Origin: an uncultured Pelagibacteraceae bacterium
Lineage (GTDB): Bacteria > Pseudomonadota > Alphaproteobacteria > Pelagibacterales > Pelagibacteraceae
Reading direction: 5' to 3'
Length of the DNA: 52,478 nucleotides
Assembly (NCBI GenBank): GCA_913050185.1
Contig: CAJXBA010000006.1
Coordinates: 1 to 52,478 of the forward strand
The notes under the pieces are model-generated. The model was given only the letters and a program-made list of their open reading frames with translations, did not search any database and was not told the DNA's origin. Shown one piece after another: positions 1 through 9,770 of the stretch; the first letter of the stretch is position 1, and every line of letters starts with the position of its first letter. The translations under genes and the position numbers were made by a program.

Positions 1-24
1 CAATGATTACGAGTCTTACATACA

Positions 25-41
25 GCGTCGCAGACCGGCGC
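25..41. repeat. Short inverted repeat
   Basis: Arms GCGTC and GGCGC enclose a 7-base loop. This gives five pairs, one of them G-T. It is the weakest of the five hairpins in the left edge. Confidence 0.35.
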
Positions 42-72
42 AGCTTTTAAATCCTTTCAAACATGGCTCCTG

Positions 73-91
73 GGATTCCAAATTTGAATCC
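73..91. repeat. Inverted repeat, 6-bp stem
   Basis: Arms GGATTC and GAATCC enclose a 7-base loop. The geometry recalls a tRNA T-arm, but the loop does not carry the TTCRA core, so it is not taken as one. A palindrome CTCGCGAG overlaps its last base (91-98). Confidence 0.5.
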
Positions 92-98
92 TCGCGAG

Positions 99-118
99 CA
101 TCACATGGAGATGTGATG
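99..118. repeat. Inverted repeat, 8-bp stem
   Basis: Perfect arms CATCACAT and ATGTGATG enclose the loop GGAG. There is no T-run beside it, so it does not look like a factor-independent terminator. Confidence 0.6.
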
Positions 119-218
119 TGAACAACATCCCTAATTTTTTCGTCAATCTATGTGCTTCTTTGGAGTCTTTTCTAGAAATTTATTTCCAATAATTACAATA
201 AGAATTCAGTGACCGGGA

Positions 219-239
219 GCAGGTGGCGCAGCCACCTGC
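219..239. repeat. Inverted repeat, strong 9-bp stem
   Basis: Perfect arms GCAGGTGGC and GCCACCTGC enclose the loop GCA. This is the most GC-rich hairpin in the left edge and stands out against the AT-rich surroundings. It lies 7 bases before the next hairpin at 246-264. Confidence 0.7.
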
Positions 240-245
240 GACTTT

Positions 246-264
246 CAAAAACACTGTGTTTTTG
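246..264. repeat. Inverted repeat, 8-bp A/T-rich stem
   Basis: Perfect arms CAAAAACA and TGTTTTTG enclose the loop CTG. On the plus strand the stem is followed within a few bases by a T-run (269-273), giving a terminator-like shape. No plus-strand gene ends just before it. Confidence 0.55.
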
Positions 265-333
265 AGTCTTTTTGATTAGGGTGTTAGTAACAAGGTAGGA
301 ACAGATTTTAAAAAGAGATTTTTGAATCTTTTT
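259..333. repeat. Near-identical 15-base repeat with 60-bp period
   Basis: TTTTTGAGTCTTTTT at 259-273 recurs as TTTTTGAATCTTTTT at 319-333, exactly 60 bases later with one mismatch. A related GAGTCTTTT occurs at 163-171. Each carries a GANTC core, the recognition sequence of the alphaproteobacterial CcrM methylase. The site is common enough that this may be incidental. Confidence 0.45.
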
Positions 334-373
334 ATGCGAATTTATGATAAGATTTTCGGAAGATTTGGAGTGA

Positions 374-418
374 CTACTAATTACAAATCAGTTGCTCTAC
401 CAATTGAGCTATAGGGGC
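374..418 (-). pseudogene. tRNA-Thr(UGU), 5' part only
   Basis: Read on the minus strand from 418, the sequence shows the acceptor 5' strand GCCCCTA, TA, a D-arm (GCTC/GAGC with an 8-base loop holding GG), and an anticodon arm with stem ACTGA/TTAGT, one G-U pair and loop TTTGTAA. The anticodon is therefore UGU, for threonine. After position 45 the tRNA stops. No T-arm, no TAGGGGC acceptor 3' strand and no CCA follow on the minus strand down to base 1. The gene sits 34 bases downstream of rlmB in the same direction, behind a plausible promoter. It could be a remnant left by an insertion, a tRNA interrupted by a long insertion whose 3' half lies outside the window, or an assembly break. Confidence 0.7.
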
Positions 419-429
419 CTGCGGTTTTG

Positions 430-456
430 TTTATAGTGAAACGAAAGCGAGTTCAA
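430..456 (-). promoter_or_regulatory. Possible promoter of the tRNA-Thr fragment
   Basis: On the minus strand TTGAAC (456-451) and TATAAA (435-430) are separated by 15 bases, with the tRNA 5' end 11 bases further on. The -35 element overlaps the stop codon of rlmB. The spacing is shorter than ideal, so this is only a candidate. Confidence 0.35.
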
Positions 457-1211
457 CCGAGTAATTTTTTTTTTAAATTATCAATATAGTGAAATACTAC
501 AGCAGCTGAATTGGAAATATTAAGGCTTTCCACTGTTCTATTTATATTGATTTTTAATAAAAAATCGGAATTTTTTGATGTTTGATATTTTATTCCATAT
601 CCCTCTGAACCAAAGAGAATAACGTTATTTCCATTCCAATCGTGTTTGGTGAAATCCTTGTTGGCATTATTATCAAATCCACAAATCCAAAAATTTTTAG
701 TTTTTAAATATTTTAATGTTGCATTTATATTTGAAACTTCGAATATATTAATATGTTCTATACATCCACTTGCGCTTTTATATAATAGCCTGCTTTCGCT
801 GGGAAAAGATCTTTCTTTGACAATTAATCCATCAATATTAAATGAAGCTGCGCTTCTAATTATAGAGCCAATGTTTCTGGGGTCAGTTACCTCCTCTAAA
901 GCAACAAAAATAATATCTTTTTTTGCATTTGTTAACTTTAAATAATCCTTAATTTTTATTTCTTCTAAATGTTCGATTTCAGCAATTAAACCTTGATGTG
1001 ATATATTATCTTTTGAGCACAAACGATCCAATTCAATTTTAGTTTTGTAATAAATTTTTACATTTTTTAAAAGATTATGATTGGGATTTTCTTTATTTAT
1101 AGTTTTTTTAGAATCTTCTGTTAATAAGATTTTTAATACTCTACGACGAGGGTTTTTCAGAGCTTCAGTTACAGCGTGTTTACCTGCTATTAAAAAAGTG
1201 GATTTTTTCAT
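453..1211 (-). CDS. rlmB: 23S rRNA 2'-O-ribose methyltransferase, SpoU/RlmB type
   Basis: This 252-residue SpoU-family (SPOUT, trefoil-knot) methyltransferase probably makes Gm2251 in the 23S rRNA P-loop from S-adenosylmethionine. All three SpoU motifs are visible: EEVTDPRNIGSIIRSA in the middle (the NxGxxxR core), ILFGSEGYGI, and NRTVESLNISNSAAV near the C-terminus. An N-terminal substrate-binding domain precedes them. The start at 1211 (MKKSTFLIAGKHAVTEAL) matches the family N-terminus; a longer frame to 1262 would add an unusual hydrophobic leader. It diverges from the tRNA-Tyr/tRNA-Gly/tuf unit, the same arrangement as in many alphaproteobacteria. TrmH is the nearest alternative, but the length and the N-terminal domain favour RlmB. 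Confidence 0.88.
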   Translation of the reverse strand: MKKSTFLIAGKHAVTEALKNPRRRVLKILLTEDSKKTINKENPNHNLLKNVKIYYKTKIELDRLCSKDNISHQGLIAEIEHLEEIKIKDYLKLTNAKKDIIFVALEEVTDPRNIGSIIRSAASFNIDGLIVKERSFPSESRLLYKSASGCIEHINIFEVSNINATLKYLKTKNFWICGFDNNANKDFTKHDWNGNNVILFGSEGYGIKYQTSKNSDFLLKININRTVESLNISNSAAVVFHYIDNLKKKLLG

Positions 1212-1331
1212 GTCTTTTTGGCAAATTACTTGGATTAATAACATATTCTTTGCCAAAATCATTTATTGCATTTGTTTAAGAAGATGATTATAAAACCTTG
1301 TTGAATAAGGCTTTATTGTCACTAAAGGTAA

Positions 1332-5678: not shown

Positions 5679-8600
5679 ATGCAATTATCTTTTACTGAGA
5701 AAAAAAGCATCAGAAAAAGTTTTGGTAAGTTAGGTGAGTCTCTATCAATACCTGATTTGATTGAGGTTCAAAAGAGATCGTATAATCAGTTTTTGTCTTC
5801 AAAAAAAAATTCTGACGTAAATCGACTTAAAGGATTGGAAAAGGTTTTTAAGCATATTTTTCCTATCGATGAAATGTCAGATAAAGCAACTTTGGAATTT
5901 TTATCTTATCGTTTAGAAAAACCAAAATTTGATGTTGAGGAATGTAGGCAAAGAGATTTGACTTATGCTTCGGCTCTAAAACCAACCCTTCGCTTAGTTG
6001 TTTATGATATAGACCAAGAAAACAATACAAAACAAATACTTTCAGCAAAAGAACAAGAAGTTTATATGGGAGAAATACCATTAATGACTTCAAGTGGAAC
6101 TTTTGTAGTTAATGGTGTGGAGAGAGTTGTCGTTAATCAAATGCATAGAAGTCCGGGTGTTTTTTTTGATCATGACAAAGGAAAGACACATGCCAGCGGT
6201 AAATTACTTTTTAATTGCAGAGTGATTCCTAACAGAGGATCTTGGTTGGATTTTGAGTATGACGTTAAAGATATATTATACTTTAGAATAGATAGAAAAA
6301 AAAAACTTCCAATTACAACTTTACTATATGCACTGGGATACAGTAGAACTGAGATATTAGATTTGTTTTATGATTTTAAAACTTTCAAATATGACAACGA
6401 ATCTAGCAAATGGAGAACCAAGTTCAATCCAAATGACTATAAACGTCCAATTAAATTAAAATATGATGTCATAGATTCTGATAATAAAAAAGTATTAAAA
6501 AAAGGATCTAAAATCAACTTTGTTATTGCCAATAAAATGCATGACGAAGGTTTGAAAGATATTTTTGTTTCATCTGATTTTTTTTTAGGAGCTTATGTAA
6601 AAGAAAACTTACTTGATCCGGCAACGGATGAAGTATTATTAAAATCTGGCTCTCCTATTACACAAGAAAATTTTGATAAAATAAGAGAGTTAAATATTAA
6701 CGCTCTCAAGATAGTTGACGTAGATCCCATAAATAAAGGACCTTACTTAATCGATACTTTAAATATTGATAAAAATGACTCTAAAGAAAGTGCGATTAAT
6801 GATATTTACAAAGTTTTAAGGCCAGGCGAACCCCCGACTTTTGATGTGGCAAAAACGATATTTAATAATTTGTTTTTTACATCTGAACGTTATGATCTTT
6901 CGGATGTGGGAAGAGTGAAATTAAATAGCAAACTAAATCTTGAATGCAATAATGAAATCTCGATATTAAGAAACGATGATATTATAGCAATCATAAAGCA
7001 TATGCTTGAACTGAGAGATGGTAAAAGAGAAATTGATGACATAGATCATTTGGGAAATCGTAGAGTAAGATCCGTAGGCGAATTAGTAGAAAATCAGTTC
7101 AGAATTGGCCTTTTGAGAATGGAGAGAGTTGTAAAAGAAAAAATGTCGACTTTATTAGAAATAGAAACTTCTATGCCACAAGATTTAATCAATCCTCGGC
7201 CAATAACTGCAGCAATGAAAGATTTTTTTGCAACATCTCAGTTATCTCAATTCATGGATCAAACAAATCCACTATCTGAAATAACACATAAGAGAAGAGT
7301 TTCAGCTCTAGGTCCTGGAGGTCTTACCAGGGAAAGAGCCGGATTTGAAGTTAGAGATGTTCATCCAACACATTATGGAAGAATATGTCCTATAGAAACT
7401 CCTGAAGGTCCGAATATTGGACTGATAAATAGTTTAGCAACATATTCTAGAGTTAATAAATACGGTTTTATTGAAAGTCCTTACAGGAAAGTAATAGACG
7501 GTAAAGTTACCAATAATATAGAATATTTATCTGCATCAGCCGAAGCAAACTTTACAATAGCGACAGCAAATTCACTTATTAATAAAGACGGTTATTTTAC
7601 TGAGGAACTTGTATCATGCAGAAAGTCACTCAATTTTGTACTTAGCAAACCTGAGATGATTGAATACGTTGACGTATCTCCAAAACAATTAGTTTCGGTA
7701 GCTGCTTCACTAATTCCTTTTTTGGAAAATGATGATGCAAACAGAGCTTTAATGGGATCAAATATGATGCGCCAGGCAGTTCCCTTAGTAAAACCTGAGT
7801 CACCATTAGTTGGAACAGGAATCGAACGAGATGTTGCCATCGATTCAGGAGTAGCGATTATAGCCAAGAGAGATGGTATAGTCGATAAAATTGATGGAAA
7901 AAGGATAGTTGTTAAGGCTACCGAAACAGATTTATCAAAGTCGGGAGTAGATATTTACAATTTACTTAAATTTCAAAAATCAAATCAAAATACATGCATC
8001 AACCAGAGACCTTTGGTAAAAATTGGTGATCTTATTAAAAAAGGAGATATTATAGCGGATGGTCCCGCAACCAAGCTGGGAGAGTTAGCATTAGGAAGAA
8101 ATGTTACGGTAGCTTTTATGCCTTGGCTTGGTTACAATTTTGAGGATTCTATTTTAATTTCTGAAAGATGTGTAACTGACGATGTTTTCACCTCAATTCA
8201 TATTGAGGAATATGAATCGATGGCTAGAGATACAAAATTAGGAACAGAAGACATAACAAGAGATATACCAAATACAAGTGAAGAATTATTAAGAAATTTA
8301 GATGAATCAGGCGTAGTTTATATAGGAGCAGAAGTAAAAGCGGGAGATATACTTGTGGGTAAAGTTACACCCAAAGGTGACACAATCTCGAATCCTGAAG
8401 AAAAATTATTAAGATCTATTTTTGGAGAAAAAGCTACTGATGTTAAAGATACTTCTCTAAAAATGCCACCAGGAAGCAATGGAATAGTTATTGATGTGAG
8501 AGTTTTTAATAGACATGGAATAGAAAAAGATGAACGATCTATGGCAATTGAAAGGGCTGAGATAGAATCTGATCAAGAAGATAAAGTTGTAGAGGAAGAG

Positions 8601-9770
8601 ATATTAGAGAGAAATATTAAAGCTAGAGCTCAAGAAATAATAAGCAATCAAAAATTAAATAATAATTTTATGAAGTTTAATTCTGGCGATATGATTACCG
8701 AAGAAGTTCTTGATCAATTGAATATAAATGATTATTGGAAAATGGTTTTTAAATCAAAGCAAACAAACGATGATCTTACAATTATTAAAGAACAATACCT
8801 AAAAGTAAAACAAGATATAAAAAAAAGATTTCAAGACAAGATAGAAAAAATTCAACAAGGGGACGAACTTTTACCCAATGTATTAAAAATGGTAAAAGTT
8901 TTTGTTGCAGTAAAGAGAAGCCTTAAACCTGGTGATAAAATGGCTGGAAGACACGGTAACAAAGGAGTAATAAGCAAGATTGTTCCTGCAGAGGATATGC
9001 CTTATATGGAGAATGGCAAATCTGTTGATGTCGTTTTAAATCCCTTAGGTGTTCCAAGTAGAATGAACGTTGGGCAAATTTTGGAAACACACCTTGGTTG
9101 GGCTTGTTCTGAATTGGGAGAAAAGATTAACAAACTTATAAAGCTAAATAAGAATATTGAAAAAAGAAATAATTCAATTCATGAAATTTTAAAAAAAATA
9201 TATGGTAGCGGAGTATATGACGAAAAAATCAAATCATTAAATAAAAAAGAATTTGAAGAATTGACTAATAATCTGTCAATAGGAATACCAGTTTCCACTC
9301 CTGTTTTTGATGGAGCATCTGTGGACGATGTTACTGACTTACTCAAATTAGCTTCATTACCTGATACTGGCCAAACTATTTTATGGGATGGAAGAACAGG
9401 AGAACAGTTTGACCGTAAAGTTACGGTGGGAACTATTTATATACTCAAACTTCACCACTTGGTGGAGGATAAAATTCATGCGCGATCAACTGGTCCTTAT
9501 AGCTTAGTAACTCAACAACCATTGGGCGGGAAAGCTCAGCTTGGTGGTCAAAGATTCGGAGAAATGGAAGTTTGGGCATTAGAAGCTTATGGAGCTTCAT
9601 ATACTCTGCAAGAAATATTAACAGTAAAATCCGATGATGTTGCAGGCAGGACTAAGGTTTATGAAACAATAGTTAAGGGTGGCGATAAATTTGAATCTGG
9701 TGTACCAGAATCGTTTAACGTTTTAGTTAAAGAAATCAAGTCTTTGGGTTTAAATATTGAAATTAATTAA
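5679..9770 (+). CDS. rpoB: DNA-directed RNA polymerase beta subunit
   Basis: The beta subunit of RNA polymerase forms one jaw of the active-centre cleft. It has 1363 residues, close to other proteobacterial RpoB. The rifampicin-pocket stretch [20 protein letters not shown] is present near residue 520 with the Asp, His and Ser of the sensitive form; one position has Thr where E. coli has Asn. The conserved [35 protein letters not shown] and the C-terminal [20 protein letters not shown], which packs against beta', are all intact. It lies 52 bases after rplL and 6 before rpoC. Confidence 0.99.

Follow-up and report, generated by a model that had tools for sequence, protein, structure and literature searches.

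A lone tRNA-Thr(UGU) 5' half in a SAR11 draft genome as the probable end of a reversed-polarity tRNA-gene element

Background

Among the systems closest to the one described here are the tycheposons of Prochlorococcus, which Hackl and co-workers reportedly described in 2023 as marine elements of tRNA genes that combine a tyrosine recombinase with cargo. The pTN3-like integrases of archaea, as outlined in a review, use the 5' half of a tRNA gene as attB, and expression of the restored tRNA proceeds from the side where the integrase lies (PMC8371274). The review, citing Williams 2002, describes a similar situation as seldom met in bacteria (PMC8371274). Integration of the T7-like cyanophage P-SSP7 into tRNA-Leu was shown by PCR, and no stable lysogens were found in that work (PMC8776855). 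In our reading, P-SSP7 carries downstream of int a tRNA-Leu 5' half that extends through the anticodon loop and is preceded by TATAAT.

The stretch analysed here (the window; 52,478 nucleotides) is contig C6 of an 87-contig, 1.24 Mb draft genome (G000) of an uncultured member of the Pelagibacteraceae. A first-pass annotation, made from the letters alone, noted at its left end a tRNA-Thr(UGU) gene that breaks off after the anticodon arm, and offered as explanations an island relic, a long-interrupted tRNA or an assembly join. The first of these was right in kind: the lone half is, with high probability, one attachment-site product of a reversed-polarity tyrosine-recombinase element in tRNA-Thr(UGU), the crossover lying in the anticodon loop.

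The lone tRNA half

With window 1–420 as query, a search of the genome of origin placed the tRNA-Thr half at E<0.01 on contigs C6 and C12 only. An intact tRNA-Thr(UGU) lies at the very start of C12 (8–83), and its first 45 nt coincide with window 418–374 (minus strand) at 44 of 45 positions; the 5' half is thus real. ARAGORN and Rfam called no tRNA at this place. Inspection by eye revealed neither a T-arm nor a 3' acceptor strand in bases 373 to 1, that is to the contig end, in agreement with the first reading. The heptamer AGGAGCC was considered as a 3' acceptor strand within 1–373 and dropped, there being by eye no T-arm in front of it, and a permuted tmRNA, an intron or another RNA was discarded since Rfam gathering scores were reached in the window by its three intact tRNAs only.

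The lone halves of relatives diverge from the intact genes right past the anticodon loop (TTTGTAA, window 387–381); where the window has TTAGT (380–376), the four other tRNA-Thr cases have TCAGT, TCATT, TCTTT and TTAAT. Because identity to intact genes is lost after the loop, the apparent 3' strand of the anticodon stem is probably element sequence; the anticodon arm, first described as clean, belongs to the half through its loop, but probably not in the 3' strand of its stem. The label "structured" for the adjoining stretch is fair: the fold of the 420 nt has a z of -2.9, 1 of 100 shuffles being as good, and a nine-pair hairpin occupies 239–219. A candidate promoter had also been proposed; a simple sigma-70 scan of 1–600 does not bear it out, giving 0 hits against a shuffle average of 2.0. 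The features are collected in Table 1.

Table 1. Features at the left end of the window
Feature	Position	Strand	Remarks
Contig end, in a stretch shared with the end of contig C44	1..64	+	98% identical
Element gene, C-terminal 39 codons	2..118	+	same gene ends contig C44
Element right end	42..277	.	83% identical to the element right end at the G008 tRNA-Lys(CUU) 5' half (C50:1763-1997)
Nine-pair hairpin	219..239	-	8 of 9 pairs kept in the G008 copy (by eye)
AAAAGATTCAAAA, one of three related repeats (others 260-272 and 159-171)	320..332	-	
Motif TATCATAA, 33 nt past the anticodon	342..349	-	fits TANCATAR
Lone tRNA-Thr(UGU) 5' half (acceptor 5' strand, D-arm, anticodon arm)	374..418	-	44/45 vs G000:C12:8-52; collinear with intact tRNA-Thr beside rlmB in relatives
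Anticodon loop TTTGTAA, probable crossover region	381..387	-	identity between lone halves and intact tRNAs stops at or just past the loop in the compared cases; putative crossover position
rlmB-like SpoU-type rRNA methyltransferase	453..1262	-	chromosomal flank, 5' side of tRNA-Thr

Chromosomal context

The gene on the 5' side of the half is, judging from its sequence and context, one that we take to encode an rlmB-like SpoU-type rRNA methyltransferase. An intact tRNA-Thr(UGU) lies directly beside the rlmB homologue at eight loci (G001, G003, G020, G022, G023, G024, G029 and G036), an arrangement that represents the empty site. In the six of them that were compared (all but G024 and G036) the window aligns from the tRNA interior to rlmB as a single block, which identifies the lone half as the 5' half that the host had there from the start. 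The tRNA-Thr loci of G002, G005, G009, G019, G026, G028 and G030 do not include rlmB and are uninformative either way. In G016 the tRNA-Thr and rlmB are 6 kb apart and the 760 bases beside rlmB hold no detectable 5' half (best local score 9, vs a shuffle average of 10.3); some insertions at tRNA-Thr/rlmB are therefore not of this kind.

The C12 gene at 15.4 kb has homologues (65–79%) located 3' of tRNA-Thr in G001, G003, G020, G023 and G029, and other C12 genes find matches 3' of tRNA-Thr in G017. C12 and C6 therefore appear to belong to a single locus, one on each side of an unassembled gap that would hold the element.

C12 further carries, at 6773–8988 (L031), genes which we presume to be purQ/purL-like. 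Their identity to the same-side tRNA-Thr matches in relatives is just 28–36%, and so they may be a replaced or a second set.

The probable element end

The octamer TANCATAR lies exactly 33 nt past the anticodon in all five lone tRNA-Thr halves. In the tRNA-Lys(CUU) case of G008 the distance is 43 nt, or about one helical turn more, and the tRNA-Arg case of G030 is without the motif. The three related repeats of the window (320–332, 260–272 and 159–171) are possible protein-binding sites. The G008 copy of the hairpin (L033, about 1923–1975) differs by two compensatory pair changes and one broken pair. Residues 1–22 of the 39-codon stretch share 91% identity with the end of contig C44, and the G008 copy of this gene is interrupted by three stops; phage records (E<=10) and PHROGs (E<=1) gave no match to the 39-residue stretch of the window. 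The 64 bases common to C44 are the likely cause of the break in the assembly. The element is cut by the contig end at base 1, and neither an integrase nor its left end is seen.

Another contig of this genome, C9 (L077, 854–2456), contains an intact tRNA-Lys(UUU) with a 453-amino-acid integrase on its 3' side, 36% identical to the integrase of G030. Contig C44 (L030, 5071–5485), an apparent island end at tRNA-Lys(UUU), contains a displaced 3' fragment. Together C9 and C44 would seem to hold both ends of an island of ordinary 3' polarity in tRNA-Lys(UUU), in which case one genome would house both polarities in elements having a terminal gene in common.

Filled sites in relatives

A single contig of G017 carries, in order, an intact tRNA-Thr, a 2.3 kb two-gene element, a 5' half and rlmB; window 319–418 aligns across its junction at 81%. 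One gene specifies an Eco47II-type restriction endonuclease (Pfam, E=3.3e-37), the other a C5 cytosine methylase (9.5e-85). Further tRNA-Thr 5' halves were located in G011 (one, within a longer array) and in G027 (two). The larger of the two apparent G011 elements encodes a DNA methylase, a NOV_C-domain protein and a SNF2-like helicase, and the smaller one two small ORFs without clear family. A PF00589 search left the element-bearing contigs of G017 and G011 without a match, the only G017 match falling on another contig. In G017 the stranded half is followed by the methylase gene, which points the same way; promoter capture by cargo was considered as a general feature and dropped, since the first ORF faces the opposite way in G011 and in the window.

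One of the G027 halves (C26; L035, 5363–5710) is found about 250 bp from an intact tRNA-Ser(UGA), on a contig without rlmB, which suggests a rearrangement or a second site.

Junction-pattern matches occurred in 4 of 23 genomes of the genus (G000, G008, G011 and G017) and in 1 of 5 of the genus of G027. An order-wide search of 297 genomes, a sample with just two members of the window's genus, matched four, of which the window's own genome is the only real case; G267, G277 and G281 were dropped, the matched sequence having no tRNA anticodon arm. These frequencies are lower bounds because the pattern was derived from the same genome set. The tRNA-Thr half pattern matched seven genome contigs and two viral contigs. 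Both viral contigs and three of the others were rejected on account of intact tRNAs at the match, and the remaining four belong to G011, G017 and G027. A second pattern search of the viral contigs gave no match.

These relatives bear directly on the assembly join raised in the first reading, namely that bases 1–373 were wrongly attached to a real, complete tRNA-Thr. The window is indeed one contig of an 87-contig draft, ending at base 1 in a stretch common to C44, a point in favour of this reading. However, a junction of this type, again with TANCATAR 33 nt past the anticodon, recurs in independent genomes (G011, G017 and twice in G027), and the intact tRNA-Thr is already accounted for on C12; a chimera is accordingly very unlikely.

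Polarity of integration

In G030, a genome in one contig, a 450-amino-acid tyrosine integrase (PF00589, 1.7e-17) lies 5' of an intact tRNA-Arg(ACG). A lone tRNA-Arg 5' half is found towards the opposite contig end, and its 42 identical nt stop at the anticodon loop. If the contig is circular, as we infer, the element measures about 9.9 kb. G066, of the same genus, has a single tRNA-Arg with the G030 flank genes on both sides, hence an empty site, and about 1.4 kb extra between the tRNA and one of these genes. The 5' flank of the G066 tRNA-Arg matches the flank of the lone half of G030 and not that of its intact gene; therefore the element brought new upstream DNA together with a 5' half. The G030 integrase found no phage record at E<=1e-10 and one weak match (22%) among the viral contigs.

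In G008 a lone tRNA-Lys(CUU) 5' half adjoins an element end 83% like that of the window, and on another contig an intact tRNA-Lys(CUU) has the N-terminus of an integrase on its 5' side (PHROG 1, 4.8e-8). Only PHROG 1 names this an integrase, Pfam, NCBIfam and solved structures giving no match; it has no relative in the viral contigs or in the other 147 of the 148 genomes searched. A clean empty tRNA-Lys(CUU) site was not found: G021 has the C50 flank genes, but a search there gave no tRNA-Lys(CUU), and the C66 flank genes did not turn up next to tRNA-Lys(CUU) in five relatives.

An on-board tyrosine integrase is thus seen in G030, and its N-terminal part in G008. An intact tRNA and its cognate fragment flank the element in G017 (on one contig) and in G030, and in the window through the synteny of C12 and C6 only. 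Restoration of the gene by an attP-borne tRNA 5' half, with upstream DNA from the element side, is seen in G030/G066 and in G017, and the window element presumably has the same 5'-half polarity. In islands of the usual polarity a 3' fragment is displaced and the restored gene keeps its original upstream DNA; here the displaced piece is a 5' half, and the G030/G066 flanks differ from that expectation. The premise that integration restores the tRNA, which makes a lone 5' half unusual, thus applies to the usual 3' polarity but not to the reversed one. There, a 5' half contributed by the element completes the gene at the element's far end, and a stranded 5' half is just what integration should leave behind.

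The half could also derive from an ordinary 3'-polarity island with a decayed partner, or from a stray partial duplication of the tRNA, and the apparently ordinary island of this very genome (integrase 3' of tRNA-Lys(UUU) on C9, 3' fragment on C44) lends this some appeal. Both origins are highly improbable, since the lone half is collinear with the tRNA–rlmB junction of relatives and hence the host's original one, and in G030/G066 the stranded piece is a 5' half with its original flank.

In tRNA-dependent lysogeny an element disrupts the tRNA and supplies a separate, complete one. Phages of this type exist (PMC10865867), and pelagiphage HTVC011P has an apparently complete tRNA-Leu. Such elements would bear a whole tRNA without reconstruction, but reconstruction is what G017 and G030 display: 16 bp separate the 3' end of the intact G017 tRNA-Thr from an ORF beyond the element, one with a G013 homologue, and the 42 identical nt of G030 stop at the anticodon loop. 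The intact gene on C12, moreover, runs into genes that lie 3' of tRNA-Thr in relatives. We regard this explanation as extremely improbable. As to HTVC011P itself (L176, 5593–5800), it has, in addition to the apparently complete tRNA-Leu(UAG), a short stretch that repeats the core of the anticodon arm.

A tRNA-Thr gene that is split, or interrupted over a long distance as the first-pass annotation had also envisaged, and whose product matures by splicing or in trans, is scarcely credible: a 5' half with its upstream flank does precede a structured stretch, but no 3' half follows in the 373 bases to the contig end, Rfam at gathering scores reports the three intact tRNAs and nothing else, independent genomes have the same type of junction, and the intact tRNA-Thr(UGU) elsewhere in the genome makes a split gene unnecessary.

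Paired repeats at the element ends

All three elements with both ends located (G017, G030 and G008) carry paired direct repeats close to either end, which lie on one strand. The repeat is GGACTAC in G017, where it occurs four times in 15 kb, TCGACCTAC in G030 and AAGACCGATT in G008. Spacing is 11 bp for the pairs near the lone half in all three; near the restored tRNA it is again 11 bp in G030 but 12 bp in the other two. The pairs lie about 70–80 bp past the anticodon (129 in one G027 end) and 100–140 bp upstream of the restored tRNA. An 8.7-kb contig of G011 (C23; L036, 1–8671) has four GGACTAC pairs spaced 11, 12, 11 and 12 and appears, from this order, to consist of two elements in tandem, about 1.15 and 7.2 kb long and separated by a 5' half; both contig ends fall just past a GGACTAC pair.

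The right-end pair was significant in G011, one G027 end, G008 and G030 (0–2 of 400 shuffles as good), and not in G017 (154/400), the other G027 end (56/400) or the window (102/400). Five of 293 genomes possess a GGACTAC pair, more than one being present in G011 and G017 only and single ones in G394, G411 and G443. At least 120 stretches of viral sequence also contain it; the G008 pair was not found in the viral contigs. Lambda-type attP sites have paired arm-type sites on both sides of the core. The distances observed here resemble those of the arm-type integrase sites of lambda attP.

Proposed mechanism and significance

Two tRNA pieces, synteny on both sides of the locus and the same layout on one contig of a relative are directly seen, and empty and filled sites, both junction products and a conserved spacing are on record. 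On the reversed-polarity reading, a tyrosine integrase, the putative recombinase of the tRNA-Thr elements, would most likely recombine the anticodon loop of tRNA-Thr, where the crossover site presumably lies, with an attP made up of an upstream region, a 5' half and the right end. The host's upstream region and own 5' half would be left stranded next to rlmB, pointing into the element. The upstream region and 5' half of the element, the former presumably active as a promoter, would join the host 3' half to give the working tRNA-Thr at the start of C12. The gap between C6 and C12 would be filled by one element or a stack of elements, and those without integrase would be acted upon in trans.

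A more general picture is conceivable, although we would stop short of calling it probable. The tRNA-Thr(UGU) of SAR11 may be a recombination hub for integrase-free cassettes, each consisting of an attP (its own tRNA upstream region and 5' half) and cargo (restriction-modification or other defence genes). They would stack in tandem by successive insertion at one intact tRNA, depend for their movement on an integrase supplied in trans by a related autonomous element, and each replace the promoter of a single-copy tRNA.

A tRNA half without its 3' partner can pass for an assembly error; on the present reading it marks the end of a mobile element, one that takes over the upstream region of the tRNA gene. 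The reversed polarity recurs in related ocean bacteria and is the rarely reported opposite of the usual treatment of tRNA genes. SAR11 bacteria are streamlined and among the most abundant in the ocean, and elements that carry defence genes in as little as 2.3 kb offer a testable route by which phage defence may be gained and lost. As a rule for mapping such elements, one may search for lone 5' halves that end at the anticodon loop.

Comparison with known systems

The tRNA-targeted islands with tyrosine integrase, in the Islander definition (PMC4383910), are alike in having an intact tRNA at one end, a displaced fragment at the other and the DNA between them. They differ in that here the displaced piece is the 5' half and the restored gene receives new upstream DNA. 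The pTN3-like elements, in the account cited above (PMC8371274), have the polarity proposed for the window element, but their hosts are archaea. P-SSP7 is a phage with a 290-amino-acid integrase, whereas the present cases are integrated elements of about 1.2–10 kb, some of them without integrase. Tycheposons, as described (PMC10872708), share the marine setting, the tRNA genes, the tyrosine recombinase and the cargo. CALIN cassette arrays (PMC11389934) resemble the integrase-free elements in being arrayed cassettes that depend on a recombinase elsewhere; they differ in their repeated site, which is attC rather than a tRNA 5' half, and the helper dependence of the present elements is presumed. 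Literature on small, integrase-free, defence-carrying, tandem SAR11 elements of reversed polarity was not found, although some of this ground may already be covered in the work on tycheposons and in Williams 2002. The polarity itself is already known, from archaeal pTN3 and, by our reading of the sequence, from the attP of P-SSP7; what appears to be new is the occurrence of small integrase-free defence elements of reversed polarity.
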